The position numbers were made by a program, and so were the translations under genes. 64,000 nucleotides of DNA, taken from the NCBI RefSeq assembly GCF_900411375.1, contig NZ_LS422988.1:1-64000 (forward strand). The letters are read 5' to 3'. Source of the DNA: Lentilactobacillus raoultii. GTDB taxonomy: Bacteria; Bacillota; Bacilli; Lactobacillales; Lactobacillaceae. The notes below the pieces were generated by a model. That model did no database searches, was not told where the DNA came from, and was given only the letters and a program-made list of their open reading frames with translations. Shown piece by piece: positions 12,409-30,042 of the stretch. Every line of letters starts with the position of its first letter. Position 1 is the stretch's first letter.

Positions 12409-12529
12409 ATGATTAAATATGGAAAGAAAGCGCTTCTCATTTTGAAGCATAATGATGGCACCTGTATGTCGAGTGATTTATAATGAAAGTGTTGAAAGGA
12501 AAAGATATGTTTTAGGGGAGGTTTTAGAT

Positions 12530-14338
12530 ATGACGTTTGATCTTAAAAAGTCATTGCTTGTTTCAATGGCTGCGTTAGGACTGTTTGCGGCAACCGCAAC
12601 CGTTAATGCTAATCAGGCCAACGCCAAGAGTTACGCACGAGTAACCTCAAATCAAAAGATGACGTCTGATCCGGCAACTCGAAACATTTCCTTTACCGGC
12701 AGTAATGCACTTTATACTAAAGCCGGCACACTTCGAGGTGCCAGAGTAGTTGCGACAAAGACGACGACGTCATTGTTGGCAAACTCAAGCTTGTCATCAG
12801 ATAACTTCCGGGCATACCGAGTAGCAACGACCAACCGGGGATCGGTCTACTACAAAGTTGTCTCGTTTGATCGGCAATACCGTGGCTGGGTTTACGGTGG
12901 CAAGAGCACCGCAAGCTTTGGTGGCGGCACACAGGCTTACACCACGTTTACCAACACAAGTTTAAGTACGGCTCAGCAAAACAGCCTGTACAAGATTTCT
13001 AATCCTGGGGTTGCTAACGACGGCAAGACAGTTACCTATAAGCAACCGGCATGGACACAATACAAAGTTGGCCGTCAAATTATGGATTCAACGCCTTACG
13101 CAAACGCAACCTTTAAGATTACGCAAGTTGGGACACGAACCCGTGAAGGTGACCAATGGGTTAAAATCCAAGCTACCGATAATCAATACAGTCAAGCTAA
13201 CGGCTGGATTTCATATAGTGGTTTGACTTTAACTCAAACACCGGTTGCTGACAACGCAGTCCGAGTCAACTTGGTTGATGCCAATAACAACAATAATGTA
13301 ATTAAGACATTTGATTACGCCAAGAACGGTGCTCAAAAGGGCAGTCGACTCGGTACTCAAAATGGTTCCAACTGGACGTTGGCTTCAAATGATCAGACCG
13401 CTTTACAAAACCAAATCAATACGGCTTTGAATGGCACTGGTTATTACGTTGGGATCTTAAGTCAGAGCCAGATTAACGCTTTGGCTCAAGGTACTTTCGG
13501 CAGCTCGGTCAATGTTCCGGTTACTAAACAATCCAATATCGCTGATAACGCTGTTCGAATCAATTTGGTAACCCCAAACGGCACGTTATTGAAGTCGGTT
13601 GATTACCAGAAGAACGGTGCTTCAAGAGATAACACAGTTGGCTACTGGAACGGTTCGACTTGGACACTCTACAGTGGTGATAATACTGCGATTACCAATT
13701 TAATCACCAGCGCTTTGAGTGGTACCGGTTATTACCTGACGAACAATCAGTTAACCAGTGCTCAACAACAAGCAATTGCCGCTGGCCGATTTGGTGGTAG
13801 TGTGACGGTTAATGTGACAAATACACCTCAAACACAGTTTAGCCAAATCACGCCACGTTCAATCGGTTGGGGTGGACCATGGCTTGGTTCGACGGCTATG
13901 ACTGCTACCAATTCTCCATATGATACGAAGACAGTTACTATCAATGGCCATTCGTATAGTGCTAATACCATCCAAAACATGGGGACTAGTGGAGAATCTT
14001 GGAACAACTTGGTAAAAGACATTAAGGCAGATAGTAGCGGCCTTGATAAAATTAATGCCAATTTTAAGAACTCTGCAATGAATCAATATATTGCACAAAA
14101 CAATATGGCATTTGGCCCCGGATCAGGAAACTTTAATTCAAGTCAGGTAATGGCATATATTAATGCTAATGGGAATCTGAAGACGCTTCATTCACCGCAA
14201 TATCCAGTATTTAGTCCAACAGGTTCAGGAGACAGTAGTAGTTACAATGTTTCCTATGCTTCGATCACTTATACTGCTTACAGCTCTGTTGATGGAACGT
14301 ATGGTAATCCAATTGTGGTTTACTACAATTATCAATAA
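12530..14338 (+). CDS. S-layer-like surface protein, paralogue 2
   Basis: 602 residues. ATG 12530 follows AGGGGAGG; longer in-frame starts have no ribosome site. Signal peptide KSLLVSMAALGLFAATATV, cut near ANA-KSY. The shared SlpA-like N-terminal domain spans about residues 30-230 ([53 protein letters not shown]). Two tandem repeats of about 95 residues follow (NAVRVNLVDAN ... FGSSVNV and NAVRINLVTPN ... FGGSVTV), then a unique Ser/Asn/Tyr-rich C-terminus. It is the last gene before the CRISPR region. A TATAAT at 12479-12484 is the likely -10. Confidence 0.78.
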   Translation: MTFDLKKSLLVSMAALGLFAATATVNANQANAKSYARVTSNQKMTSDPATRNISFTGSNALYTKAGTLRGARVVATKTTTSLLANSSLSSDNFRAYRVATTNRGSVYYKVVSFDRQYRGWVYGGKSTASFGGGTQAYTTFTNTSLSTAQQNSLYKISNPGVANDGKTVTYKQPAWTQYKVGRQIMDSTPYANATFKITQVGTRTREGDQWVKIQATDNQYSQANGWISYSGLTLTQTPVADNAVRVNLVDANNNNNVIKTFDYAKNGAQKGSRLGTQNGSNWTLASNDQTALQNQINTALNGTGYYVGILSQSQINALAQGTFGSSVNVPVTKQSNIADNAVRINLVTPNGTLLKSVDYQKNGASRDNTVGYWNGSTWTLYSGDNTAITNLITSALSGTGYYLTNNQLTSAQQQAIAAGRFGGSVTVNVTNTPQTQFSQITPRSIGWGGPWLGSTAMTATNSPYDTKTVTINGHSYSANTIQNMGTSGESWNNLVKDIKADSSGLDKINANFKNSAMNQYIAQNNMAFGPGSGNFNSSQVMAYINANGNLKTLHSPQYPVFSPTGSGDSSSYNVSYASITYTAYSSVDGTYGNPIVVYYNYQ

Positions 14339-14497: not shown

Positions 14498-14626
14498 GAC
14501 TTGTCATAATGTTTTTGGATGTTCGTTATTTTTTCATACTGCTTATGTATTTGAAATATAGGTTTGAACCCTGCTTAGGCCATAGTTGTTATTGAACTGA
14601 CGAGTGAATTTCAACTGCAACTACGA

Positions 14627-14632
14627 TATACT
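14627..14632 (+). promoter_or_regulatory. Putative -10 box of the mini-CRISPR
   Basis: TATACT at 14627-14632 lies about 12 bases before the first mini-CRISPR repeat, so a transcript would begin only a few bases upstream of the repeat. No good -35 is visible (GTGAAT at the right spacing). Weak manual call. Confidence 0.3.
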
Positions 14633-14643
14633 GGATGTTAAGA

Positions 14644-14720
14644 GTATTCCCCACATATGTGGGGGTGATCCTAGTATATGTGTGTTAAGAGAGTATTCCC
14701 CACGTATGTGGGGGTGAAAT
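14644..14720 (+). CRISPR. Two-repeat mini-CRISPR with a short spacer, CreR/CreA-like guide candidate
   Basis: Repeat 1 (14644-14671) and a repeat 2 with degenerate 3' end (14693-14720) match the type I-E repeat of the main array except for one stem base. Repeat 1 holds the perfect palindrome CCCCACATATGTGGGG. The stretch between repeats is only 21 bases; in the main array it is 33. Counting spacer position 1 at 14673, 16 of 20 bases match 15353-15372 in the cas3 promoter, with AAC as PAM, the seed intact, and mismatches at 6, 12, 17 and 20. This fits a guide that represses the cas operon rather than one aimed at foreign DNA. The repeats are seen; the function is inferred. Confidence 0.7.
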
Positions 14721-15340
14721 ATCGAGTGTAACTTTGAAGATGATATGTTATCAGTTTATATTGGATTGCGTTATATGTCAGCTTTTATCTAATTATTATT
14801 TCACTGTTTAACTTAGATAATTTAGAAAAGTTAAAGAACGGCCGGCAACTCGATTAAATTGGTGATTCGGGCAGTAGATTAATCCGGGCCTAAAAATTTA
14901 TGATTGAAGCTCACTTAAATTAATTAATCAGCTAGGGGCCGTTTAACGATTGGCGAAAATACTAGCAGCAGCACATTAATGGGTAAGTTACTTCCTGCTG
15001 TAAGAGTGTTCTAAATTGACAACTTTAGCTGGCATAAGGCGAGTTAACCAAGCCCTGATTAGTTTGGCCGCTACTAAGCTAGCACAAACGATAATGTTGA
15101 ACTTGACTCGTAAGCCTATTTTTCAGTCATCAGGAAGCAGGTTACAACATATTTCAACATCTAAGGCATTTGCTCGTTGTATTCCGGTCTTCAATAGTTA
15201 AATCGGTGATTTCTTAAAAATCAAAATGTGATTGTTGATGATCAATCAGTAAAGTTAAAGAAGGATCTAAAAATTAAGAATAGCTTCTAAAAGTATTAAA
15301 AATAACTCAAACGCTAAAAGAGAGGGAAGTTGAACAAAAT
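14721..15340. other. Gene-free stretch between mini-CRISPR and the cas3 promoter
   Basis: About 600 bases with no credible gene. A 61-codon open frame at 15016-15201 has no ribosome site and no recognisable protein character. There are scattered short inverted repeats but no T-run terminator. It could be decayed sequence, or could hold a small RNA partner of the mini-CRISPR; I see no positive evidence for either. Confidence 0.4.
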
Positions 15341-15349
15341 ATTTTATAT

Positions 15350-15382
15350 AACAGTATTTGTGTTTTAAAAGTATGCTATACT
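15350..15382 (+). promoter_or_regulatory. cas3 promoter containing the mini-CRISPR protospacer match
   Basis: An extended -10, TGcTATACT, has its hexamer at 15377-15382. The -35 region at the normal spacing (about 15354-15359) lies inside the 20-base match to the mini-CRISPR spacer (15353-15372, PAM AAC at 15350-15352). Cascade bound here would cover the -35 and the spacer of the promoter. The transcript would start near 15389, about 45 bases before cas3. Confidence 0.6.
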
Positions 15383-15434
15383 GTATTTGTTGATATCAAT
15401 GAAGTTAATAAGAAATTATGAAAGGAAACCAAAG

Positions 15435-18260
15435 ATGAATTTTTCAAAAAACGTAAGCGGTTTCTGGGGCAAAAAACGAAGAGATAAAAATGGCCAACAA
15501 CTATGGCTACCACTTATCGTTCATTTAATTGACACCTCAAATACAATGAACTGGCTGTACAAAAATTGGTTGAGCGGCGGACAGAAACAGATCCTAAAAG
15601 CGAAAACGCTAAGTCAGGACGCATTTTCCGATGAAGATATCCAAAAGCTGATTGTGTTCTTGGGATTTATGCATGACATCGGCAAGGCAACCCCTGCATT
15701 TCAGACGAAACCATCTCGTATTTGCGATGTTGAAATGGATCGAAACTTTATCAATCGATTACGGGATCATGGCTTCTCTGACCTTAAACTTCCTAACCCC
15801 AATTTAGTTGAAAAATCTCCTCATGCAACTGCTGGGGAGGCGTTGATCGAGTTTGGAGAAGATTTTAATGTGAATGAGTCAGTTGGTGCCATTATCGGTG
15901 CCCATCATGGCGTTCCGTTGGGAAAAGCACCAAGCAGAAACATTAAAGATTTTCGGTCCAATTATTACCAGGTTGATAAGTCAGGCCCTATTCAAGATGT
16001 CTGGAAATGTGCTCAAAAAGAATTGTTTGATTATGGATTACACTTAGCCGGTTATCAGTCGGGCTCTGAAATCCCATGGGTAGGCCAGCCCCAAGCTGTT
16101 ATTTTAACTGGTTTACTGACTATGGCCGATTGGTTAGCATCTAGTGAGTACTTTACAAACAAACAGAGTGATAAAGTTGAACTTTTTCCTTTGATTCCAT
16201 TCGATCAAATAGCTAGTGATGTTGATACGTCAGTGCGATTTGAGAAAGCGATTAGAGCTTGGAATTTAAACGGAAGGTGGGTTCCCCACGCTATTGAAAT
16301 GAATTCGGATCCTTACCAAAAACTTTGGGGCTTTCGTGCGCGACCTGTCCAAAAGGCGGTTATCGAAGCGGTTAATCACACCAAGGAACCTGGGATGGTT
16401 ATTATCGAGGCCAGCACTGGTTCCGGGAAAACCGAAGCAGCCCTTGTCGTAGCTGAACAACTGGCTCGTTTTGACCACGAAGATGGGATTTTCTTTGGCT
16501 TACCCACCCAAGCGACAACCAATTCAATGTTTGATCGAGTCGATGATTGGTTAAGTAAAATTGCAAAATCTCAGAAAAAGAATTTGTCCATTCGATTAAT
16601 GCACAGTAAAGCTCAATTTAATCGCCATTTTCAACGGATTCCGCATGCTAACAATATTGATGATGCAGATGATAAGTATGCCGATGGTGCGGTGACGATC
16701 AACGACTGGTTTTCTGGTAAGAAGTCAATCTTAACCAAATTTACCGTGGGGACAATCGATAATTTGTTACAAATGAGTTTGAAGCAGAAGCATCTTTTCC
16801 TAAAGCACCTTGGATTGAGTGGCAAAGTCGTCATCATTGATGAGGTTCATGCGATAGATGTCTTTATGAACCAGTATCTCGAGCAAACAATCATGTGGTT
16901 AGGCGCTTACCATGTTCCCATCATTGTTTTATCGGCAACGTTGCCAAAAGATAAACGATCAAGATTAATTAAAAGTTACTTAACTGGAAAGTATGGTTCC
17001 CTGAGTCCCAAAAAGTTTATCAAACCGGAAATTGCGCCAAAAGATTGGGAAACTACTGAATCATATCCGTTGGTTAGCATTTTGGATGGCAAGAAGTTAA
17101 CCCAAATCACAAAATTTCCGGGCCGAAATGATCAGTCACCATTTCAGATTCAAGTTAACCGAATTAATCCGAGTGATGATGAGCTAATCAATCGAGTGGT
17201 TAGCCAGTTAAAAGGCGGCGGTGTAGCCGGAATTATCGTTAATACAGTTATTCGAGCACAAAAATTGACTAAATTGGTTCCAAAAGAAATCAAATTGATG
17301 CTATTGCACGGCTCTTTTTTGGAAACGACACGGGAAAGACTGACACAACAACTTCAGGATGATATTGGCAAAGACGGTCATCGGCCTAATCGAATGATTA
17401 TTATTGGCACCCAAGTTTTAGAGCAGTCTCTCGATATCGACTTTGACGTTTTGTACACGGATATCGCACCAATTGATTTGCTTTTACAGAGAGCTGGCCG
17501 GCTCCATCGTCATCAGATTCAGCGGCCTAAGAATTTGCAAGTACCACAATTGTTTATCACCGGGATTGCTGGAGCTGGCAAATATGGTAAGGGGAATGAA
17601 ATGATCTATTCAAAATATTTGTTGATGAAAACTGACTACTTTTTACCTGATACGATCAGCATTCCAGCAATGGTTTCCAAGTTGGTACAGGCGGTGTATA
17701 GCAGTGAAACAGATGGAGAAGTAGCAGAAAAAATTCCGGGTTTGCTTAAAGCAAAAGACGCACAAGGAAAGTTTATTGATCATGAAGAATGTAAGGCGAA
17801 ATCTTTTCGAATTAAGCGGCCTCAACAGTTTGGCTACTCCACTATTCATAGTTGGCTTGAGCATAGGAATTTCGATGTTGACCGGGACCCATACATTTCG
17901 AATGCAACTGTGCGGGACATTAAGCCAACTTTAGAGGTGATTCTGCTTCAGCATACAGATGATGGTGATTTCTTAATTGACGAAGGAACTACTCGCGGTG
18001 AGAAAGTGACCATTGATGATGCTAAGTTGATTGCTCAGCAGCTGATCAAACTTCCGGTAGCTGTGACGGAAAGAAATATGAATGGTGTATTAGAGGTGCT
18101 GCAAGATCTTACTAAGAAATATTACCCGGATTGGGCAGAAAATTCTTGGTTAAAGAAATCATTAGCGTTGCCACTAGATGAGCATTTTCAGATTTCCTTA
18201 AGCGGATGGAAATTAACGTATTCAACCAAGTTTGGTCTAAGTTATGCAAAGGAGGATTAG
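15435..18260 (+). CDS. cas3: Type I-E CRISPR helicase-nuclease Cas3
   Basis: 941 residues. The N-terminal HD nuclease is shown by FMHDIGKATPAFQTK and IIGAHHGVPLG. The SF2 helicase follows: Walker A ASTGSGKTEAA, DEVH box IIDEVHAID, motif III VLSATLP, motif VI LLQRAGRLHRH. All key residues are present, so it should be able to degrade targets marked by Cascade. ATG 15435 is chosen (AAAGGAA upstream); an in-frame start at 15387 would fall at or before the predicted transcription start. It leads the cas operon; cas8e starts one base after its stop. Confidence 0.95.
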   Translation: MNFSKNVSGFWGKKRRDKNGQQLWLPLIVHLIDTSNTMNWLYKNWLSGGQKQILKAKTLSQDAFSDEDIQKLIVFLGFMHDIGKATPAFQTKPSRICDVEMDRNFINRLRDHGFSDLKLPNPNLVEKSPHATAGEALIEFGEDFNVNESVGAIIGAHHGVPLGKAPSRNIKDFRSNYYQVDKSGPIQDVWKCAQKELFDYGLHLAGYQSGSEIPWVGQPQAVILTGLLTMADWLASSEYFTNKQSDKVELFPLIPFDQIASDVDTSVRFEKAIRAWNLNGRWVPHAIEMNSDPYQKLWGFRARPVQKAVIEAVNHTKEPGMVIIEASTGSGKTEAALVVAEQLARFDHEDGIFFGLPTQATTNSMFDRVDDWLSKIAKSQKKNLSIRLMHSKAQFNRHFQRIPHANNIDDADDKYADGAVTINDWFSGKKSILTKFTVGTIDNLLQMSLKQKHLFLKHLGLSGKVVIIDEVHAIDVFMNQYLEQTIMWLGAYHVPIIVLSATLPKDKRSRLIKSYLTGKYGSLSPKKFIKPEIAPKDWETTESYPLVSILDGKKLTQITKFPGRNDQSPFQIQVNRINPSDDELINRVVSQLKGGGVAGIIVNTVIRAQKLTKLVPKEIKLMLLHGSFLETTRERLTQQLQDDIGKDGHRPNRMIIIGTQVLEQSLDIDFDVLYTDIAPIDLLLQRAGRLHRHQIQRPKNLQVPQLFITGIAGAGKYGKGNEMIYSKYLLMKTDYFLPDTISIPAMVSKLVQAVYSSETDGEVAEKIPGLLKAKDAQGKFIDHEECKAKSFRIKRPQQFGYSTIHSWLEHRNFDVDRDPYISNATVRDIKPTLEVILLQHTDDGDFLIDEGTTRGEKVTIDDAKLIAQQLIKLPVAVTERNMNGVLEVLQDLTKKYYPDWAENSWLKKSLALPLDEHFQISLSGWKLTYSTKFGLSYAKED

Positions 18261-18261
18261 T

Positions 18262-20058
18262 ATGAGCGCACGAAGTTTCAACTTGATAACTGAGCCGTGG
18301 ATCAAGGTGATTGATCGAGGGACCAACCGGGAGGAAACGGTATCGCTAACTAATCTTTTTGAGAATGCCCAAAATTACCGCCAATTTGCGGGGGAATTAC
18401 GAGCGCAGGACTTAGCGATTTTACGTTTTTTGTTGGCCATTCTAACAACGGTTTATTCGCGTTTCGATGCAGCTGGGAAACCGTACCCATGGTTGAAGGT
18501 GGATCCTGAGACACTAGAGGATATTGGTGAGGAAGATATTAGCGCATATGAAGTGGTTGGCAAAAGAGGTCCGCAGCGTTATGTTGCCGACTTATTAGAA
18601 ACATGGCGCCAATTAAATTCCCAGGGACATTTTTCAACAATCGTGGTGACATACTTACAGCACCATTCCAAGCAATTTGACCTATTTGGTGATCAGCCGT
18701 TCTATCAGGTAACTGAGGAGCAGTACAACCAATTAGTTTTGGACAAAGACCGAATATCTTTAAAAAAGCCTAAGGGAATGGTGGCAATTCGCCAGATCAA
18801 TCGGCAAATTTCTGAAAGCGGTAATAAAGTTGCCCTCTTTTCACCAAAGTCGGAATCCTATAAGGATCAAATGCCATTAGATGAACTGGTACGTTGGTTG
18901 ATTTCATATGAAAACTACAGTAGCGTCACTGACAAATCAAAGGTTAAAACAGATGAGAAAATGAGTGTTCCAGCTGGTTGGCTATATAAATTAAATCCAG
19001 TCTTTATCCAAGGGAAATCAGTTTTTGAGACCCTAATGTTGAACATGGTGCTGGTTAATCATGATGATAATAACGACCAAGGATATGTTTCTCAGAAACC
19101 GGTCTGGGAATACAACAGTGTTTTTGAGTATATTGATAAACGGAAAGGAACAAGTCGTCCCGATAATATTGCTGAACTCTACACAACGTGGTCGCGGCTT
19201 CTGTACATTGATTGGGAAACCGGGAAACCAGTGATTTTTAGCGCCGGCATCCCTATGTTTAATAATTTCGAAGCGTATATTGAACCGATGACAACTTGGC
19301 GGAAAACGAAAACGCAAAACGACGGCACACATTGGCTTCCACCACAGAAGAGGCTGAGTAATGTAAACGTTGCAATGTGGCGCAACTTTGGTCAGTATGT
19401 CAGCGTAAATCAAAATGATGATGAGATTAGTGTTGATTCTGAGCCTGGAATCGTTAAATGGCTACATCTGTTGGAAGAAAGAGGATTGATTGAGAATCAA
19501 GCAACAATCTCATTAGCGTCGGCGACCCTGATAAGGGACGATAATTCGTCATCACAGATGCCTGTGGCTGAGGTGTTTGATGATATGCGGATTAAGGCCA
19601 ATGTACTGTTTGACCCAGACCCTGACAGGTCTCAGTATTGGCCTGGAAGAATTGAAAATATGATTGACTTAACCAAAGAGAGTGATAAGAAATCCGTCGG
19701 GACCATCTATCGCACTTTCATCACAAATATTTCAAGAATCCGTAACGCGGGAACTGCCAATCAAGGTTTTGTTAATGCAGCTATGGCGTCATACTACGAT
19801 GGCTTAAATGGGCCTTTTAAAGAATGGCTCGAAGGTTTAAGTAATGATGATGATCGAGACGATAAAAGTGAAGAATGGATGAATTATCTGCGTCATTATG
19901 TATTTCAACTTGCGGATAATATTACACGGCAATTATCTCCCAGAGATATTGCCGGTTATACGGACCGTAATCGTCGTAAACATAATATCTTCATGGCAAT
20001 GAATCGATTTAAACACGATATTGCGAGTCGATTGAGAAAGGGAGAAGTGACTAAATGA
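18262..20058 (+). CDS. cas8e: Cascade large subunit Cas8e (Cse1/CasA)
   Basis: 598 residues, normal for the family. The N-terminus FNLITEPWIKVID is the Cse1 hallmark, followed by the L1-type PAM-reading region and a C-terminal helical bundle (NAAMASYYDGLNGPFKEWL region). Cse1 recognises the PAM and recruits Cas3. AAAGGAGG precedes ATG 18262, one base after the cas3 stop. Its stop overlaps the next start (ATGA). Confidence 0.93.
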   Translation: MSARSFNLITEPWIKVIDRGTNREETVSLTNLFENAQNYRQFAGELRAQDLAILRFLLAILTTVYSRFDAAGKPYPWLKVDPETLEDIGEEDISAYEVVGKRGPQRYVADLLETWRQLNSQGHFSTIVVTYLQHHSKQFDLFGDQPFYQVTEEQYNQLVLDKDRISLKKPKGMVAIRQINRQISESGNKVALFSPKSESYKDQMPLDELVRWLISYENYSSVTDKSKVKTDEKMSVPAGWLYKLNPVFIQGKSVFETLMLNMVLVNHDDNNDQGYVSQKPVWEYNSVFEYIDKRKGTSRPDNIAELYTTWSRLLYIDWETGKPVIFSAGIPMFNNFEAYIEPMTTWRKTKTQNDGTHWLPPQKRLSNVNVAMWRNFGQYVSVNQNDDEISVDSEPGIVKWLHLLEERGLIENQATISLASATLIRDDNSSSQMPVAEVFDDMRIKANVLFDPDPDRSQYWPGRIENMIDLTKESDKKSVGTIYRTFITNISRIRNAGTANQGFVNAAMASYYDGLNGPFKEWLEGLSNDDDRDDKSEEWMNYLRHYVFQLADNITRQLSPRDIAGYTDRNRRKHNIFMAMNRFKHDIASRLRKGEVTK

Positions 20059-20672
20059 CGAGTGCAAAAATACAAGATGAGATTGCTACTGGAATTGAAA
20101 CTAGCGCTGTTCGAATTATGAGCGAATTATACAATCATGGCAATTTAAATCGGGCCGCCCTAGCCGGGGCTCGAGGAGCAGCAACCATCAGCAGTCCCCG
20201 AGCACAGAAAGTCTGGCCATTAATTATGAGTCAGTTAGAAAAGTTGGATACAACTATTCGCCAAGAAGCTCCAAAAGCTAAAATTCTGAGCATTTCTGGA
20301 ACGCCCACTAATGTCGAAACGGCTTTGTATACCGCAATTCACTTTTATGCGATTCATCAGCAAGGAAGCGACCGGGTGGAATTTGGTAATTCGCGTAGAG
20401 GCAACGGGGCCACATTTTTTACCGCGTTGGCGCAATTACGGAATGTTCAGGGGATGCGAGATTCTTTGGACCGGCGGATCGACGCACTACTTGGCATGAC
20501 TAATATTCATGGAGTTATTAATGCGTTGGCCCATTTGGTTGGTATTCTCAAAGCTAAGTACACGGGCCCTCAAATTGATTATCCTCGATTAGCAAAGGAC
20601 TTGTTTGTTTTTCAGGAAGGTTATATTAGTGCTAACGCGACACGTCTTCAATGGGGACAAGAATATTATTAA
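20055..20672 (+). CDS. cas11: Cascade small subunit Cas11 (Cse2/CasB)
   Basis: 205 residues, mainly helical and basic, in the fixed position between cas8e and cas7. Visible Cse2 features are RAALAGARGAATISSPRAQKVW near residue 35 and a C-terminal helical bundle. Two copies line the Cascade belly and stabilise the R-loop. Starts within the cas8e stop. Confidence 0.9.
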   Translation: MTSAKIQDEIATGIETSAVRIMSELYNHGNLNRAALAGARGAATISSPRAQKVWPLIMSQLEKLDTTIRQEAPKAKILSISGTPTNVETALYTAIHFYAIHQQGSDRVEFGNSRRGNGATFFTALAQLRNVQGMRDSLDRRIDALLGMTNIHGVINALAHLVGILKAKYTGPQIDYPRLAKDLFVFQEGYISANATRLQWGQEYY

Positions 20673-20713: not shown

Positions 20714-21826
20714 ATGACTCAAAATTTATATATTGACATTAATGTTCTTCAAACGGTTCCGTCTTCGAATATTAATCGTGATGATAATGGCGCACCGAAA
20801 ACCGCTCTATATGGTGGTGTTACTCGCTCGCGAGTGTCATCTCAAAGCTGGAAGTATGCAATGCGAAAGGGGTTTGAAACGGACAACATTGAGAATGGTA
20901 TTCGAACAAAGAAAGTGGTTGAAGAGTTATCTAAAGATTTAGCAGCCGTTGACGAGTCTCTTGATGACAAATCAGCAACTCAAAAAGCCGTTGCCGTTTT
21001 GAAAAAATTCGGTATTAAATTTGAGACCGAGAAGGGGAATAAAAATAAATCAAGTGCGCTGTTAATGGTAAGTCATGGTCAAATCAAAAAATTTGCTAAA
21101 TATGTAACTGCGCATGACATTTTAAAGCAGAAAAATATTACTAGCAAAACAAAGAAGGAAATTGAAAAAGTATTATCTGGGGATCGAACCTTAGATTTGG
21201 CACTCTTTGGCCGAATGGTTGCCGATGATGCCGAATTGAATGTTGAAGGGGCTGCTCAAGTGGCACATGCGATTTCTACTCATGAAGTCGTTCCGGAGTT
21301 TGACTACTTTACGGCAACTGATGATTTATCAAAAAAGAGTGAAAGTGGCGCCGCGATGTTGGGAACTATTGAATATAATTCAGCAACCCTTTATCGATAC
21401 GCTAATTTGAATGTCAAAGAGTTAAGCGAGAATCTGGGAACCACTAATACAGTGGAAGCAGCAAAGGATTTTATAAAAGTATTTATATCCACTATGCCAA
21501 CTGGCAAGCAACATACATTTGCTAATAAAACCGTTCCGAATTATGTAATGATCAACGTTCGTACGGACACGCCCGTTAATTTAATAACGGCTTTTGAAAC
21601 ACCAGTTAGTGCAGATAATGGTTATGTTGCCAAGTCAATTGAGGCTTTGGAAACGGAATACGATGAAACACAACAATTTGTTGACGCCCCACTTTTAACG
21701 GTTGTTTTGGCAGAACGCAAGTATAATTCAATAATCGAAAATCGGGTGGATAAGTTATCTGAATTGCTGAGCCAAGTTACTGATGTGGTATCAAAGGCGG
21801 TGCAAGATGAAGACCATAACGATTAG
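20714..21826 (+). CDS. cas7: Cascade backbone subunit Cas7e (Cse4/CasC)
   Basis: 370 residues with the typical Cas7e N-terminus (LYIDINVLQTVPSSNINRDD, then YGGVTRSRVSSQSWKYAMR), which is the conserved RAMP crRNA-binding core. Six copies normally coat the crRNA spacer; a shorter guide such as the mini-CRISPR's would carry fewer. GGGAG upstream. Separated from cas11 by 41 bases and overlapping cas5 by about 20. Confidence 0.94.
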   Translation: MTQNLYIDINVLQTVPSSNINRDDNGAPKTALYGGVTRSRVSSQSWKYAMRKGFETDNIENGIRTKKVVEELSKDLAAVDESLDDKSATQKAVAVLKKFGIKFETEKGNKNKSSALLMVSHGQIKKFAKYVTAHDILKQKNITSKTKKEIEKVLSGDRTLDLALFGRMVADDAELNVEGAAQVAHAISTHEVVPEFDYFTATDDLSKKSESGAAMLGTIEYNSATLYRYANLNVKELSENLGTTNTVEAAKDFIKVFISTMPTGKQHTFANKTVPNYVMINVRTDTPVNLITAFETPVSADNGYVAKSIEALETEYDETQQFVDAPLLTVVLAERKYNSIIENRVDKLSELLSQVTDVVSKAVQDEDHND

Positions 21827-22532
21827 GCTTGCTGGCCTCTTGCAGTCATATGGAAACGAAGCCCCGTTTAATATTCGAACGACCAGTAATTATCCATCCA
21901 AGAGTGCAGTTATCGGGATGATTTCGGCGGCATTTGGGTATCAACGAGATTGTTCAAAAATTCAGATATTCAACCGGTTAGAATTCGCAGTAAGAATTGA
22001 TCAGCCGGGAAAACTATTAACTGATTTTCAGACCGTTCACACTGCTAAGTCTTCCTATACAACTCATCGTGATTATTTGCAGGACGCAGTCTTTGTTGTC
22101 GCAATTGGAAGCGACGATGAGCAATTGATTGATGATATTGATGAGGCGTTACACCATCCCAAGTATCAATTATTTCTAGGGAGAAGGGCAAATGTCCCAG
22201 CAGGGATCTTAAAGACGAAAGTATTCAAGAATACCAATCCGTTGACAGCTCTAAAGCAGTTATCTTGTCAAGCTGATGAATGGTATCAATATCAGCATTA
22301 TCAGGGGCGTGATTCTATTCAGTTGAAAGTGTTGGGTGATGCTAATCTAGTACCGGATGCTGAAAGTTTCTTGGTTAAAGATACCGTTAAGTCGTTTGAT
22401 CAAAGCCACCGTCAGCATGGCTTTAGAGCTGTAGTAGAAAGTAATGTGATTACGAAGATAATTTGGAGAGATGGAAATCGAATGAATGATAGTGGGCCAG
22501 ACACGCACCATAATCCGATGCGGTTTCTTTAG
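21807..22532 (+). CDS. cas5: Cascade subunit Cas5e (CasD)
   Basis: 241 residues. TIRLAGLLQSYGNEAPFNIR then YPSKSAVIGMISAAFGY is the Cas5e signature (RAMP fold, glycine-rich loop); it caps the 5' handle of the crRNA. ATG 21807 lies inside the end of cas7, indicating coupling; the longer in-frame start at 21783 adds non-family residues. Confidence 0.93.
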   Translation: MKTITIRLAGLLQSYGNEAPFNIRTTSNYPSKSAVIGMISAAFGYQRDCSKIQIFNRLEFAVRIDQPGKLLTDFQTVHTAKSSYTTHRDYLQDAVFVVAIGSDDEQLIDDIDEALHHPKYQLFLGRRANVPAGILKTKVFKNTNPLTALKQLSCQADEWYQYQHYQGRDSIQLKVLGDANLVPDAESFLVKDTVKSFDQSHRQHGFRAVVESNVITKIIWRDGNRMNDSGPDTHHNPMRFL

Positions 22533-22544
22533 GAGGGAATATAT

Positions 22545-23213
22545 ATGTATTTATCACGTGTTGAAATTGATGTCGGCAATCGGCAGAAAATTAAGGGTCT
22601 CACGCATCTTGGCGCTTACCATAATTGGGTGGAACAATGTTTTCCGAGTGAAATTAAAGCTGGAAAACGTGGTCGCCACCTTTGGCGAATTGATCCATTG
22701 GATGGTAAGAAGTATTTATTACTGGTAAGCGAAGAAGTTCCGGACTTGCAACAAATGGAATCTAATGGAGTTCCGGGGACCGCTGTCACTAAATTGTATG
22801 ATCAGTTTTTAGATCGTTTGAGAAAAAATCAAATCATGCAGTTTCGTTTAACGGCCAATCCAACTTATGCAATCAAAAGACCGGGAAGTAAACAACCGCG
22901 AATTGTGCCGCACATCACCATCGATAATCAACGCAACTGGTTGATAAAGCGAGCTGAGAAGTTGGGGTTCCATTTGGTACAACAGGTTCATAGCGATCTC
23001 CTTAAATCGAAAGACACATGGGCGTTTAATATTGTGAATCGAGACTACCAAATTCTTCGAAAGGGCCACCGAACGATTCGTTTGAGCCGGGTGACATTTG
23101 AAGGACTGCTTCAGATCGGTGATTTGGAGCGATTTAAGAAAACTCTGGTAAATGGAATCGGTCGTGAGAAAGCTTTTGGTATGGGCTTGATGACGGTGGT
23201 ACCATTAAGCTAA
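22545..23213 (+). CDS. cas6e: CRISPR repeat endoribonuclease Cas6e (CasE)
   Basis: 222 residues: the N-terminus MYLSRVEIDVGNRQKIKGL, a central FRLTANPTYAIK strand, and the C-terminal glycine-rich loop NGIGREKAFGMGLMTVVPL are typical of Cas6e. It cuts CRISPR repeats and stays on the 3' hairpin. AGGAGGGAA precedes ATG 22545. Last cas gene; the array leader follows at once, and no cas1 or cas2 is found. Confidence 0.94.
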   Translation: MYLSRVEIDVGNRQKIKGLTHLGAYHNWVEQCFPSEIKAGKRGRHLWRIDPLDGKKYLLLVSEEVPDLQQMESNGVPGTAVTKLYDQFLDRLRKNQIMQFRLTANPTYAIKRPGSKQPRIVPHITIDNQRNWLIKRAEKLGFHLVQQVHSDLLKSKDTWAFNIVNRDYQILRKGHRTIRLSRVTFEGLLQIGDLERFKKTLVNGIGREKAFGMGLMTVVPLS

Positions 23214-23364: not shown

Positions 23365-23697
23365 GTATTCCCCACGTATGTAGGGGTGATCCCAAGTTCT
23401 AATAGAACGTTAAAGAACAGGCCCAGTATTCCCCACGTATGTAGGGGTGATCCTGTCTGGTGGAAAAAATCCAACAGGCGTATGGAGTATTCCCCACGTA
23501 TGTAGGGGTGATCCTTACATAATGGAATTATTAAAAGACCTGGAATTGTATTCCCCACGTATGTAGGGGTGATCCCGAATTTAAGGATGCCAATATCAAC
23601 ACCGTTTAGTATTCCCCACGTATGTAGGGGTGATTCTTATCAGTTGGTTGCCGACGTATCTAGCTTTCTGTATTTCTCACGAATGTAAGGGGTGATT
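23365..23697 (+). CRISPR. Type I-E CRISPR array, six repeats and five spacers
   Basis: Repeats of 28 bases start at 23365, 23426, 23487, 23548, 23609 and 23670, an exact 61-base period (33-base gaps). The first four are identical; the fifth has a change near its 3' end and the sixth is clearly degenerate (GTATTTCTCACGAATG...), marking the distal end. The base after each repeat is C, T, T, C, T, always a pyrimidine. This is what a PAM-derived base would give and agrees with the AAC next to the cas3-promoter match. The stem GTAGGGG differs from the mini-CRISPR GTGGGGG by one base. Confidence 0.96.
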
Positions 23698-23836: not shown

Positions 23837-23945
23837 TTTTGCATATTTGCAATCAAATGCTAATCATTATGATATAGTAATGAAAAGAAATTTGCAGTAA
23901 AATAAAAATCGTAGTATCAAATAATAAGTATTGGGGATAATCTAT

Positions 23946-25559
23946 ATGAAGCTAAACCTTAAGCGGTCGCTGTTTATTTCAGCAGCCACACTAAGCTTTT
24001 TTGCGGCTGCTGGCTTTGGGAACCAGCAGGCCAGCGCCAAAAGTTACGCGAAAGTCACATCAAATCGAACGTTGTCGATGAATCCATATGATCGAAACGT
24101 TACGTTTACTGGCAGCAATGCGCTTTATACTAAAGCAGGAACTTTAAAAGGAGCAAAATTGGTCGCTTCATCCAGTGAACTACAAAGCCTTGCCAATTCA
24201 TCGAGTTCTCAGAACAATGTCCGGGCTTACCGCATTGCACGAACGAATCGTGGTTCCATTTATTATAAGGTTGTTACGTTTGACGGCCAGTATCGTGGCT
24301 GGATTTATGGTGGCAAGAGTGATTCGGATTTCTATGGTGGGGTTTCTCAATATAGCACAACGAAATATACGGCGATGTCCAATGATCAGCAAACGGGGAC
24401 ATTTAAAATTACTAATCCGGGAACTGCCAATGATGGCAAAACCGTAACCTATAAACAGCCAGCTTGGACTCAGTATAAAGTTGGCCGGCAAATTACAGAT
24501 TCCAGTCCGTATGCCAATAAGACGTTTAAGATTGATCAGGCAGCTACCAGAACTCGTGAAGGTGATTTATGGGTTCACATTAGCGCAACTGATTCCGCCA
24601 ATTCAGCTGCCAACGGTTGGATCCTTTATTCAGGCTTAACCAAGGTTAGCGGCAGTTCAACCAATTCTAATTCCAATAGCTCAACACCAACCACCAATAA
24701 TGCGGTGCGGATTGTGTTGACTGACCCGAATGGTAATACCATTAAAGTACTTAACTATGGTAATGGCACAAAAGGCCAAACTTTGGGAACGCTAAATGGC
24801 TCAACTTGGTCATTGTCCGCCAATGACAATTCTCAAATCACAAGTCAAATTAATACGGCCTTGGCTGGAACCGGTTACTCACTTTCAAGTAGCAGTACAA
24901 ATGGTACCTTAAGTCAGGATCAGATTAGTGCGCTAGCTCAGGCTAAGTATGGCTCGTCAGTCACAATTAAGACACTTGCATTGGGGCAGGCAACCCTTTC
25001 AGTTGTGCCAAATGGTTTGACTGCTGAAGATGGACCTGTGATTAGTGATTCTGCTGCACCTAGTTTTAAAAATACTGGATGGTCATCTTTCACTATTCTG
25101 CCATTTAAATTACCTGCAATGACACCAGGGACCTTTACCGCTTCCCAATTGTATAAGATGCAATCTAGTAATAACTCTGATTATCAAAAATTGATGTTTG
25201 CAATGAATCCACCAATTATCTCAACTGCTAACGATGTCAGCGCAATTAACGCCGCATATCTAGCAGAAGCTAAGAAGGAATACCTCAAATCATCCGTACC
25301 AACGCTCCACGGTGTCAACGGATCAAAACTTTCAGCCAGTGACATTGCCAGCCGGGTAACGGGCGTTAAGTCACCGATGTATCCACAGTTTGTTAAGGAA
25401 GGCGGCTTCCTTGGAATTGGCCAACAGTACGTATTGCGTTGGTATCACCTGAACTATACCGCAACCTCAGCTGCTTCGGATGGCACGCTTGGTAGCAGCA
25501 CACCAGTTAGTGTTAATCTTACTGCTAGTGTTCCATCCAATAGTAGCTATGATAAATAA
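23946..25559 (+). CDS. S-layer-like surface protein, paralogue 3
   Basis: 537 residues from ATG 23946 (GGGGA upstream; a TTG at 23931 would include the ribosome site). Signal peptide KRSLFISAATLSFFAAAGF, cut near ASA-KSY. Shared N-terminal domain to about residue 235 ([55 protein letters not shown]). Ser/Asn/Thr linker, then one repeat of the type found twice in paralogue 2 (NAVRIVLTDPNG ... YGSSVTI), then a unique C-terminus. First S-layer gene after the CRISPR locus and a close relative of paralogue 2 on the other side. Confidence 0.78.
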   Translation: MKLNLKRSLFISAATLSFFAAAGFGNQQASAKSYAKVTSNRTLSMNPYDRNVTFTGSNALYTKAGTLKGAKLVASSSELQSLANSSSSQNNVRAYRIARTNRGSIYYKVVTFDGQYRGWIYGGKSDSDFYGGVSQYSTTKYTAMSNDQQTGTFKITNPGTANDGKTVTYKQPAWTQYKVGRQITDSSPYANKTFKIDQAATRTREGDLWVHISATDSANSAANGWILYSGLTKVSGSSTNSNSNSSTPTTNNAVRIVLTDPNGNTIKVLNYGNGTKGQTLGTLNGSTWSLSANDNSQITSQINTALAGTGYSLSSSSTNGTLSQDQISALAQAKYGSSVTIKTLALGQATLSVVPNGLTAEDGPVISDSAAPSFKNTGWSSFTILPFKLPAMTPGTFTASQLYKMQSSNNSDYQKLMFAMNPPIISTANDVSAINAAYLAEAKKEYLKSSVPTLHGVNGSKLSASDIASRVTGVKSPMYPQFVKEGGFLGIGQQYVLRWYHLNYTATSAASDGTLGSSTPVSVNLTASVPSNSSYDK

Positions 25560-25614: not shown

Positions 25615-26073
25615 TTTTTAAAAATATTGTAATGGTGATAAGGCTATCTGATAAATTATGTAACATTGGTGAAATATTTTAGGCTAAAAAATATTTTTCT
25701 CTATTTTTTCTTCGTTTTACGTATAAACGAATGAGATTAATTAGCACAATTACTTATTATTAATATTCATAATTTCTTCATATTTTGTACACAATTTAAA
25801 AAGTGAAATGGTTACCGTCACAGACAGGATTTGAAGAGATTGCTATCTTTATAAGCTCATTAAAGTATGAAGATTTGAATTTTTTGTGAATTTTCAGAAA
25901 TTTTTTGAAAGCTTAATTTTTACTTTCTACTTTTGTTACAATGTTGTTTCAACGTAACCTTTTTGTAATATTAACTAAAAAACGAAAACTTTTCGTAATT
26001 TCACTAAAAGCTCGATAGCGTATACTTTTAATTATTCTTTGTGGATACACAAGAAAAATTGGAGGAATATATT
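25615..26073 (+). promoter_or_regulatory. Long AT-rich upstream region of S-layer paralogue 4
   Basis: About 450 bases without a gene. TATACT at 26021-26026, with TTTCAC 16 bases earlier, is the likely proximal promoter. The transcript leader ATTCTTTGTGGATACACA is shared with paralogue 5 (ATTCTTTGTGGAAACACA), as is an upstream GTGAATTTTCAGA, so the promoter regions were duplicated together with the genes. Confidence 0.5.
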
Positions 26074-27747
26074 TTGACAAATAACTTGAAAAAGTCATTA
26101 TTTGTTGGATTGGCTGCCTTAGGGTTTGTCGCAGTTGCAGGTTCTGCAACGACTCAAGCAAGTGCTAAGACTTATGCTAAGATTACATCTAACAAAGCAT
26201 TGACTTCTGAAGCTACATCTCGCAACGTAAATTGGACCGGTTCAGCTGCTTTATACACTAAAGCAGGTACTTTAAAGGGTGCCCGCGTCGTTGCCGGCAA
26301 GTCAACTTTAAACAATGCCGCTTCTTCAAAGGATAGCAAGAGCAACGTTCGCGCATACCGGGTTGCCACTACTAACCGTGGTTCCGTATACTACAAGGTT
26401 GTTTCATTTGACGGCCAGTACCGTGGCTGGATCTATGGTGGTAAATCAGCATCTAAATTTGGTGGTGGCTTAACATCATACGCAACCACTAAAGATGCAA
26501 CATTAGACAGTTCAGCTGCTAATGCTACTTATACATTTGCACAACCAGGCTCAGATGCCGCAAACTTAGCATATGAAGCGCCGGCATGGACTCAATATAA
26601 GGTTGGCCGTGCCAAAGTTAATGGTAAAACCTTAACGACTACTGCACCATATTCAGGTGCTCAATTCAAAGTTACCAAAGCAGTTACTAATGCTCGCGAC
26701 GGTCAGACTTGGTATCAAATTTCAGCTGCACCTGCCAGCTCAGCAAGTGCTTCAAGTGCTACAGCAAGTGCCGCTTCATCAGCAAGCACTTCCAGCGCCA
26801 GCTCATCAGCTTCATCATCCGCAAGTTCATCAGCTTCAGCAACTGCTGATCAGTTGAACGGCAAGTGGGTTGAAGCTTCTGCTGTTAAGGCTACATCAGC
26901 TTCATCATCTGCTTCTTCAGCATCATTTGATGCCAACAAGAGCGTTAAGGTTCAATACCGTGATGTGAAGACTGGTAAGACGTTGGACAAGACAAACACT
27001 TGGACAACTGCTTCATCCAACACTAAGAAGGATCAAAACCTTTACAATAGTGGTGCCAGCTTCAAGGACAACTCAGGCCGTGACTTAGGTGCCTACATTG
27101 TTAATGAAGGAGCTCCTTCGGGCTATGCTTTCACTACAAATGATAATAAAGATCCTGAAAGCAACGGTACCAGCACTAATTTGACAATCAGCCCAGCCTT
27201 GTCAAGTGCAACCTTTGGTGCAACTGTGACAGTTGATGTTCAACCAACTGCAGCAGCAACCAAGGTTTCATTTAACTATGTAAATGGTAACAATGGTTTG
27301 ACCACTTTGAAGTCATCCGACTTTGCACTTGGGTTCCCAGGCTTAACTGACAATCAGCAAAAAGCCGCTTTACCAAATGGTGGCGCTACTGATGGTTCAT
27401 TTAAGGTAAATGATTTCTTTGGTGACAATGGTAAGTTTGAAAAAGCTTTGAATGATTCAAATACCAAAGTGACCCTTGATTCCAAGAACTTATACACTGA
27501 TACTTCTTCGAACAAGCAAGTTAGCGGTATGGGTTCAACAACCGGTTTCTTCGGTACCAGCGTTCCTGGATCAGATAACTGGCGTTACTTCTACGCATAC
27601 GATGCTCAAGGAACTGATAGCAACAACGCTGCCAGCTTAAGCAACGGTTCAACTGTGAAGGTTGTTCTGCACCGTTACGTAACTCAAATTTCAGTTAACA
27701 GCAAAGACACATCAGTTAATGCAAACGCAAATTACGTTGCTAAGTAA
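26074..27747 (+). CDS. S-layer protein, paralogue 4, with Ser/Ala-rich linker and SASSAS motif
   Basis: 557 residues. The start is TTG 26074, seven bases after GGAGGA, and corresponds to the ATG of its near-duplicate at 28411. Signal peptide [20 protein letters not shown], cut near ASA-KTY. N-terminal wall-binding domain as in the other paralogues ([48 protein letters not shown]). A long Ser/Ala linker (about 220-290) includes SASSAS, the O-glycosylation motif known from L. buchneri/kefiri S-layers. The C-terminus (about 290-557) ends [15 protein letters not shown]. Codon use is strongly biased, suggesting high expression. It may be a main S-layer subunit. Confidence 0.82.
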
Positions 27748-28067: not shown

Positions 28068-28410
28068 TAAATTACTTGAAGAGGCATCTATTAAGTGATT
28101 TTGCTTACCACTCAATTATCTTCACACTTTCTTCACAATTAAGAATCCTCAAAATCTTCTTATCTGACAAGTATTTTCGCTGCTAAGCCAACACTTTATC
28201 CTTGATTATTTCGCTAAAATATGAAAAAAGTGTGAATTTTCAGATTTTTTAGAAGTTCCTTTCCCAGATTGTTAGAATGTTATCATTTGGAAAGATAGTT
28301 GTAAAAGTAGACCATTTTTGTGGTCAATTAGTAATGCCATAAACTAGTTTTTGAGGCTATACTATCTGTATTCTTTGTGGAAACACAATAGAAAATGGAG
28401 GAATGCTTTT

Positions 28411-30042
28411 ATGACAACTAATTTTAAGAAGTCTTTGTTTGTCGGCTTGGCAGCTTTGAGCTTTGTTGCCGCTGCAGGTGCAGCCAACACTCAGGCAAGT
28501 GCAAAATCTTATGCCAAAGTCACTTCGAATAAGACTCTAACTTCAGACGCGACAACGCGTAATGTGACATTTAATGGTTCCAACGCACTTTATACCAAAG
28601 CTGGTACTTTAAAGGGCGCCAAGGTCGTTGCAACTACGACGACTTTAAAGAATTTGGCCTCATCCGATAGTTCCGAACAGAACGTTCGGGCTTACCGGGT
28701 TGCGACAACTAATCGTGGTTCGGTTTACTACAAAGTTGTTACCTTTGATGGGAAGTATCGTGGTTGGATTTACGGTGGTAAGTCGACTTCTTCATTCGGT
28801 GGCGGGATCGATTCATACGCTACGACTAAAGATGCAACATTAAGCAGTTCTGCTTCAAGCGCAACTTACACTTTTGCCAACCCAGGTTCCAGTTCAGCAG
28901 ATTTAGCTTATAATGCCCCTGCATGGACCCAATACAAAGTCGGTCGAGCAACGGTTAATGGTAGTGTTGTGACAACGACGGCGCCATACTCTGGTGCTAA
29001 ATTCACCATTACCAAAGCAGTTACCCGTTCTCGTGAAGGCGATACTTGGTATCAAATCTCGGCTGCGCCAGCTAGCTCAGCAAGTACTTCCAGCTCAACT
29101 TCAAGCGCATCATCTTCGGCTAGTGCTTCATCAGTTGCTCAATCCACTGCAGCTCAGTTAAATGGTAAGTGGGTTCAGGCTTCTGCATTGAAAGCTACTT
29201 CTGCCTCTTCATCTGCTTCATTTGATGCTGACACCAGTGTTAAGGTTCAATATCGGAATGCTTCAACCGGAAATACTTTAAGTACCACTAGGACCTGGAC
29301 CACTTCTTCATCCAACTCATCAAAAGGTGAAAATGTCTACAATAGTGGATCAAGCTTTAAGGACAGTACCGGTCGTGACTTAGGTGCTTACATTGTCAAC
29401 GCTGGCGCACCTTCGGGTTATGCCTTTAAGACAACAGATGATAAGAGTGCTTCCAGCGATGGGACCACCACTAACTTGAGCATCAGTCCAACGTTGTCAA
29501 ACGCAACCTTTGGGGCAACTGTAACCGTTGATGTTGTGCCGGTTGCTTCCACCACGAAAGTTTCCTATAACTATGTCAATAGCAATGGGGGCTTGACAAC
29601 CTTATCATCCAGTGACTTTGCGCTTGGGTACCCGGGATTGACTGATACACAACAATCAAACGATTTGCCTTCAGGTGGGTCAACTGACGGGTCCTTTAAA
29701 GTGAGCGATTATTTTGCTTCCAATGGTAAATTTGAAACTGCTCTTGATAATTCCAATACTAAAGTGACGCTTGATAACAAGAACTTGTACACTGATACCT
29801 CTTCAGGCAACAAAGTTTCACTGCTTGGCCAGTCAACCGGCTTCTTCGGCAGCAATGTCCCCGGATCTGACAATTGGCGCTATTTCTATGTCTACGATGC
29901 TTCTGGTACCGCAGATAACAACGCTTCTTCATTGACAAACGGCTCAACAGTTAAAGTAGTGCTTCACCGTTACGTTACCCAAATTTCTGTTAACAGTAAG
30001 GATACCTCTATCAACGCTAATACAGATTACGTTGCTAAATAA
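28411..30042 (+). CDS. S-layer protein, paralogue 5 (near-duplicate of paralogue 4)
   Basis: 543 residues, ATG 28411 after GGAGGAA. It aligns along its whole length with paralogue 4: signal peptide [20 protein letters not shown], wall-binding N-terminus, shorter Ser/Ala linker ([16 protein letters not shown]), and the same C-terminus down to [20 protein letters not shown]. The two arose by tandem duplication with their promoters (TATACT here at 28358-28363). The linker lacks an exact SASSAS. Codon bias is somewhat weaker than in paralogue 4. Confidence 0.82.

Follow-up and report, generated by a model that had tools for sequence, protein, structure and literature searches.

Our analysis makes it very likely that the two-repeat mini-array upstream of cas3 in the 64-kb window (the whole stretch of 64,000 nucleotides of Lentilactobacillus raoultii DNA analysed here) is a CreR-type guide, which would repress its own Cascade operon via the cas3 promoter. 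Observed directly are the anatomy of the mini-array, its PAM, its match, the uniqueness of this match, covariation among relatives and a six-base signature in the mismatches. The kind of guide is already known (CreR), and the window guide is, judged by comparison with relatives, a further and well-supported case of it; what seems to be added here is direct covariation, the six-base footprint and the occurrence of two guides in one genome.

The mini-array and its target before cas3

The features that the argument draws on are these, all on the + strand:

14624..14632, +, CGATATACT, the likely -10 region of a mini-array promoter (-10 hexamer at 14627-14632)
14644..14671, +, mini-array repeat 1, which would supply the crRNA 5' handle and ends in GGTGATCC like the main array
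14672..14692, +, 21-nt spacer (21 = 33 minus 12), base 1 PAM-derived and the rest the 20-nt guide
14693..14720, +, mini-array repeat 2, hairpin (3' end of the guide) intact, tail GTGAAAT degenerate
15350..15352, +, PAM AAC (AAC or AAT at 14 of the 19 sites recorded in our family survey without PAM filter)
15353..15372, +, guide target in the putative cas3 promoter (-35 region and spacer)
15374..15382, +, extended -10 TGCTATACT of the putative cas3 promoter, conserved in L. rapi
15435..18260, +, cas3 (reading frame open from 15387, ATG at 15435)
18244..20058, +, cse1/cas8e
20055..20672, +, cse2/cas11
20714..21826, +, cas7e
21783..22532, +, cas5e
22545..23213, +, cas6e
23365..23697, +, main array of five repeats (23365-23636) plus a degenerate one at 23670 (the sixth, by eye)

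The mini-array lies near the cas operon and its repeats resemble those of the cognate array; their motif occurs seven times in the window as against none in 100 shuffles. As the original prediction had it, base for base, repeats at 14644-14671 and 14693-14720 enclose a gap of 21 nt (14672-14692) in place of the usual 33. Among full-length spacers from four regions of the source genome, 89 of 99 measure 33 nt (the other 10 measure 34) and 98 start with T or C, which fits a normal length of 33 and a PAM ending in a pyrimidine, in keeping with the AAC found next to the match. When four Lentilactobacillus loci (window, L. rapi, G015 and G014) were aligned, CGATATACT proved identical immediately 5' of repeat 1 in the first three and absent at the corresponding place in G014; our consensus promoter scan made no call at this putative mini-array promoter. 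All four loci conserve the repeat 1 ending GGGTGATCC and retain its GTGATCC end, the crRNA handle. Their hairpins are intact, and the L. rapi repeat 1 carries changes in both arms of its stem (CCTTAC/GTAAGG for CCCCAC/GTGGGG) with pairing retained. The tail of repeat 2, the part a guide does not need, is degenerate in L. rapi, G015 and G014 too. A predicted fold in which the two mini-array repeats pair with each other counts against the guide reading.

Recomputed base by base, spacer bases 14673-14692 agree with 15353-15372 at 16 of 20 positions, mismatches fall at 6, 12, 17 and 20, and AAC stands in front, all as claimed beforehand; guide positions 1-5 and 7-11 are perfectly matched. This is the best non-self site for the guide on both strands of the window (the runner-up reaches 14/20). 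In 3000 shuffles of the 865 bp 3' of the mini-array (14721-15585, including the first 151 bp of cas3), a match of at least 16/20 arose three times and one of at least 14/15 (positions 1-17 without 6 and 12) once. Across the 3.07-Mb genome, AAY followed by AGTATNTGTGTNTTAA has a single exact site (15350-15368), and two mismatches admit four further sites, the mini-array itself among them, as against two for a reversed control pattern. Given the shuffle results and the rank of the site within the window, we reject a chance match. The prediction had laid this match over the -35 region and spacer of a promoter: the extended -10 TGCTATACT is indeed there at 15374-15382, but the consensus scan did not call a cas3 promoter, and we assign it - by inference - from the extended -10, its conservation in L. 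rapi and its place before cas3. So placed, the promoter would be partly complementary to the spacer, with PAM and seed, from about 80 bp before the cas3 ATG.

All six type I-E cas genes expected of such an operon (cas3, cse1, cse2, cas7, cas5, cas6) are present; cas3 scores under the cut-off of a full-length model and over that of a core model, and cse1 stays below its NCBIfam cut-off (46.7 vs 70.05 bits) and far above that of Pfam (287.4 vs 24.7). Inspection by eye of the ORFs between 10 and 30 kb of the window turned up none resembling cas1 or cas2. The source genome holds further CRISPR arrays besides the main one and a second I-E locus (G000:C5, L010), whose cas3 is 56% identical and which has two ORFs at the usual place of cas1-cas2. 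As an aside, related and probably secreted proteins flank the cas operon on both sides (12452-14338, 23931-25559, 26041-27747, 28351-30042); repeats are common to three of them, the fourth was grouped by eye, and neither 12452-14338 nor 23931-25559 has a Pfam match.

Covariation of guide and promoter in the genus and the family

A comparison of mini-spacers and cas promoters in related genomes had been proposed as a check, with independent change as the refuting outcome; run between species, it did not refute the prediction, as both change together. Three genus-mates (L. rapi, G015, G014) carry the same 21-nt mini-array upstream of cas3 with spacers that differ, each fitting its own cas3 promoter next to an AAC or AAT PAM. 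L. rapi, with the order repeat, 21 nt, repeat and then its own cas3 promoter, is the best-fitting case: its guide is unlike that of the window, its first 16 bases match its own promoter exactly beside AAC, and it is paired at 6 and 12 too. G015 and G014 follow the same pattern with other sequences and with mismatches again at 6 and 12, and the G014 target begins 37 bp past the end of the spacer. At the second I-E locus of the source genome, the guide is a 34-nt spacer (L010 4956) after a degenerate repeat, and its target with PAM AAC (L010 7333-7355) lies on the opposite strand in the upstream region of that locus's own cas3. A 21-nt spacer at L010 4858 was tried as guide of this locus and discarded at a best promoter match of 13/21 (L010 7001-7500). 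Two ORFs that by eye resemble transposases now separate guide and target there.

Over positions 1-16 without 6 and 12, guides fit their own targets at 14/14 (window, L. rapi, G014), 13/14 (G015) and 12/14 (second I-E locus), and in a guide-by-target matrix the diagonal is highest in all five loci, the off-diagonal maximum being 12/14 (G015 guide on the L. rapi target). Guide and promoter are thus kept matched at five of the nine cas3 loci of the genus (24 genomes searched, eight with a cas3 match). No guide was found at the other four loci, G003 (cas3 with one stop), G005 (cas3 in pieces), G008 (only 145 bp upstream) and G013; the guide is not universal in the genus.

Our family survey took in 74 loci, and as many upstream regions, from the 73 of 397 genomes with this cas3 at E<=1e-100. 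Repeat-like elements were defined as GGGGTGATCC with at most two mismatches and CC upstream, a pattern that misses more decayed repeats; 44 of the 74 regions have any candidate element, and the regions of L037, L081, L096, L131 and L132 are cut by contig ends. After removal of repeated spacers and of those near region ends, 317 spacers gave 312 distinct ones, a set that merges the identical guides of G241 and G092. Strict hits (PAM AAY, positions 1-5 and 7-11 perfect, own region) came from 15 of the 312 spacers and seven genus labels, and most of the 74 loci are without one. Pairing spacers with the wrong regions yielded 6 strict hits in 22776 pairs (one of them G241/G092, which share one guide), that is 0.08 expected as against 15 observed, and 60 rounds of dinucleotide shuffles gave a mean of 0.03 and a maximum of 1. 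The 15 hit loci share descent to some degree, and the counts are to be taken as non-independent events. Without the PAM filter 19 spacers hit where mismatched pairs predict 1.1, and the recorded sites lacking AAC or AAT were mainly duplicated array units. Self-matches between duplicated array spacers or repeats (G153, G323, G380, G392), which ranked near the top, none with an AAY PAM and none in the 15, were excluded by eye. At a looser level of 12/16, 20 of the 312 spacers hit. Drawing up to 3000 mismatched pairs at random gave 22 hits, which puts the number expected by chance at about two, and four hits appear to be of this sort: G240, G323, one of G201 and one of the second G000 locus.

For 14 of the 15 strict hits, the distance from the target to the conserved N-terminal motif of Cas3 downstream is 57-311 bp. 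The one outside this range, G309, has its target 929 bp before the motif with a 180-aa ORF between, and may be aimed at the upstream region of a gene other than cas3 (this case is found in L123 at 133-312 and 479); G224 has a 43-aa ORF between target and cas3. Targets on the opposite strand occur at the second locus of G000 and in G241. Spacer lengths are 21 nt (four), 22 (three), 33 (five) and 34 (two), with one not called, so about half of these putative guides are shortened and about half are of normal length with a match at the seed end only, both being forms of partial pairing. Phage records gave no match, and a loose mini-array pattern found at least 120 stretches in viral contigs, where 1 of 80 matches was repeat-like on both sides, with a different repeat. 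For plasmids there were 12 records, with cas3 as the annotated feature in every one.

Other guides were seen in relatives. In G299 (L066 1469-1537, L139 2962-3716) the guide of a 21-nt mini-array matches the bases immediately preceding it, with PAM AAT and a mismatch at 6. This mini-array precedes a gene whose product has a PemK/MazF-like domain (covering half of the Pfam model at E 4e-9), cas3 being downstream; by analogy with CreTA/CrePA, the gene is possibly a Cascade-repressed toxin. Under the genus label g15 (L058, L059, L060, L062, around 1441-1532), mini-arrays sit 12-15 kb upstream of cas3, and in each genome the guide matches the opposite strand immediately before its own repeat 1, with PAM AAC; self-repression of the guide and control of a neighbouring gene are candidate readings. 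In L050 and L072 (G241, G092; 1447-1532) the mini-array is directly before cas3 and its guide fits the opposite strand upstream of the mini-array with a 10-base seed, and this guide may derive from the very transcript it would control.

The six-base footprint and rival explanations

The original prediction had argued, from one locus and from the geometry of type I-E Cascade, that mismatches at positions 6 and 12 carry no penalty. This has now become a statistical signature of the family, in the pairing pattern proper to a I-E effector with every sixth base free. With 10 seed bases, skipping 6 and 12 gave 15 hits and each of the five other 6-nt phases 2; with nine seed bases the figures were 17 vs 4-5, and with eight 20 vs 4-6. 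To avoid circularity we also selected sites without weighting (PAM plus a total of at least 13/16), which left 14 spacers with mismatches at positions 1-16 of 0,0,0,0,0,9,0,0,0,1,0,9,0,1,5,4. Positions 1-14 of these 14 best guides hold 20 mismatches, and 18 of them sit at 6 or 12; set against an even distribution this gives P about 9e-14, a value that is only indicative as the loci are related. Mismatched pairs show no peaks there (22 hits, up to 3000 draws, 12/16). Since L. rapi pairs at both positions and 4 of the 15 strict hits match at 6, a mismatch appears to be free rather than required. The flipping of every sixth crRNA base out of the Cascade duplex is described in PMC5904413, where position 6 is found less important than 1-5 for binding in vivo, yet matches there remain above chance. 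Drift at 6 and 12 between constrained neighbours, with constraint lost after about position 14, should be the mark that selection on Cascade binding leaves, and it suggests that selection for repression without cutting preserves a stretch of some 14 bases, of which 12 pair.

This bears on a first rival explanation, in which the mini-array is a two-repeat relic and looks like the promoter through chance or local duplication. The stretch before repeat 2 does resemble that before repeat 1 in an AT-rich region - the caveat the prediction itself had raised - and the 12/14 fit of the G015 guide on the related L. rapi promoter indicates that promoter ancestry adds some similarity. Chance, however, stands at about 1 in 1000 at the window locus and at 0.08 expected for the 15 seen in the family, and a duplication would not focus mismatches on 6 and 12, preserve an AAC/AAT PAM or give targets on the other strand. 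Local duplication as the origin of the spacer leaves the species-specific fit, the PAM and the opposite-strand targets unexplained. So to our minds a relic is highly unlikely, and we reject duplication without function on the same grounds.

Hardly any likelihood attaches to an alternative in which the mini-array is a CreA-like antitoxin guide for a toxin gene lying between it and cas3, with control of cas3 secondary. Some 630 bp separate mini-array and target, with no ORF longer than 61 aa; CreT toxins can be very small, and the guide of G299 fits a site that precedes its PemK/MazF-like gene. Against this, the window target lies directly upstream of cas3 (at the ~80 bp given above) rather than at a toxin promoter, an unsupported 61-aa ORF is all that the interval offers among ORFs of at least 30 aa, and the 37 bp between spacer end and target in G014 leave no room for a toxin. 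For the window locus we therefore reject toxin guarding, there being no credible toxin ORF of at least 30 aa in the interval. Most improbable as well is that the main role of the guide is to make less Cascade available or to supply adaptation, as a decoy or by priming, with repression a by-product: in E. coli, targets with a partial match are able to prime adaptation (PMC5904413), but by eye the 10-30 kb ORFs include none like cas1 or cas2, and a decoy needs no match, yet 14 of the 15 survey targets are within about 310 bp of the cas3 start.

Mode of repression and known systems

Returning to the CreR-type guide, we infer transcription, processing, loading, repression and the absence of cutting as follows. 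A short transcript would start just 5' of repeat 1 and be cut by Cas6e to one crRNA-like guide made of the repeat 1 5' handle, the 21-nt spacer and the repeat 2 hairpin. Cascade accommodates six bases per Cas7 unit, and loading of this guide into Cas8e-Cas11-Cas7-Cas5e-Cas6e would give a complex two Cas7 units shorter than normal (33-12=21). The short Cascade would bind the cas3 promoter beside AAC via positions 1-5, 7-11 and 13-16 and block RNA polymerase over the -35 region and spacer. Ample free Cascade would keep the operon repressed, and its consumption by crRNAs or anti-CRISPRs would lift the repression; pairing would be too short to license Cas3, leaving the chromosome uncut.

As regards this last step, shortened spacers can reportedly support interference in E. 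coli (Kuznedelov 2016), so the argument that pairing is too short for cutting would lean on both the length and the incomplete match. According to PMC5904413, E. coli Cascade binds with a PAM and short seeds, binding reaches its maximum with a PAM-proximal match of up to 18 bp, and in E. coli a protospacer with mismatches at 19-32 is still bound, with neither interference nor priming. For a type I-B archaeon, PMC10989794 reports that spacers of 21-24 nt lower target mRNA to about 9-13% with interference lost, and mentions that earlier work had seen very weak priming from a spacer of 24 nt; silencing of genes by promoter-targeted Cascade is reported in PMC12235044. With 21 nt and 16/20 the window guide falls within this range of silencing without interference, so the most likely outcome would be that the complex represses by occupying the -35 region and does not lead to cutting.

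A wider scenario can be put forward tentatively, and we regard it as possible rather than probable: promoter guides may be widespread and continually re-matched in I-E loci of the Lactobacillaceae, this genome may run two of them at once, one per I-E locus for its own cas3, the two Cascades here may share guides and balance each other, and related mini-arrays may have moved to other promoters, including that of the PemK/MazF-like gene. Sharing would follow from the near-identical repeats, which would let either Cascade load either guide, so that each system would gauge and counterbalance the other's free Cascade. Be that as it may, guide and promoter covary except at two bases that Cascade ignores, which makes RNA-guided self-control of Cascade recognisable and testable from sequence alone, and natural guide-promoter pairs become available for studying how CRISPR levels are set and respond to anti-CRISPRs.

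As to known systems, cas-regulating RNAs (CreR) are said to have been described by Liu et al. (2023, Cell Host Microbe), and Shmakov et al. (2023, NAR) reportedly found CRISPR-derived regulatory mini-arrays, standalone repeats with spacers partly complementary to cas promoters; the two-repeat window mini-array, whose spacer is partly complementary to a putative cas promoter, is of that build. A literature search by title and abstract found no earlier paper describing the window guide. Comparison with relatives, by covariation, survey and six-base footprint, strongly supports the prediction that a CreA/CreR-like guide would have Cascade repress its own cas3. The prediction knew of no such guide for this locus; by way of correction, guides of this kind are already on record for type I-E, CreRs being reported to repress types I-B, I-E and V-A via partial promoter complementarity (PMC13131331). 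CreR is a mini-CRISPR RNA (PMC12948488), and PMC12737573 describes it as widespread in types I and V-A and responsive to crRNA abundance and anti-CRISPRs. The window locus resembles these in being a mini-CRISPR with partial complementarity to a cas promoter that would serve autorepression; it differs in its 21-nt spacer (33-12), in the covariation and six-base footprint found across the family and, for the source genome, in the second guide with a 34-nt spacer and an opposite-strand target. In S. pyogenes, Cas9 self-repression runs through a long-form tracrRNA. That system is of type II, is without a mini-array and has unrelated parts; the logic, an effector repressing its own expression (PMC13131331), is the same. 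CreA of the type I-B CreTA system in Haloarcula is a crRNA-like guide which represses without interference through an 11-bp seed match (PMC10989794); its target is a toxin promoter, whereas that of the window guide would be the cas3 promoter.
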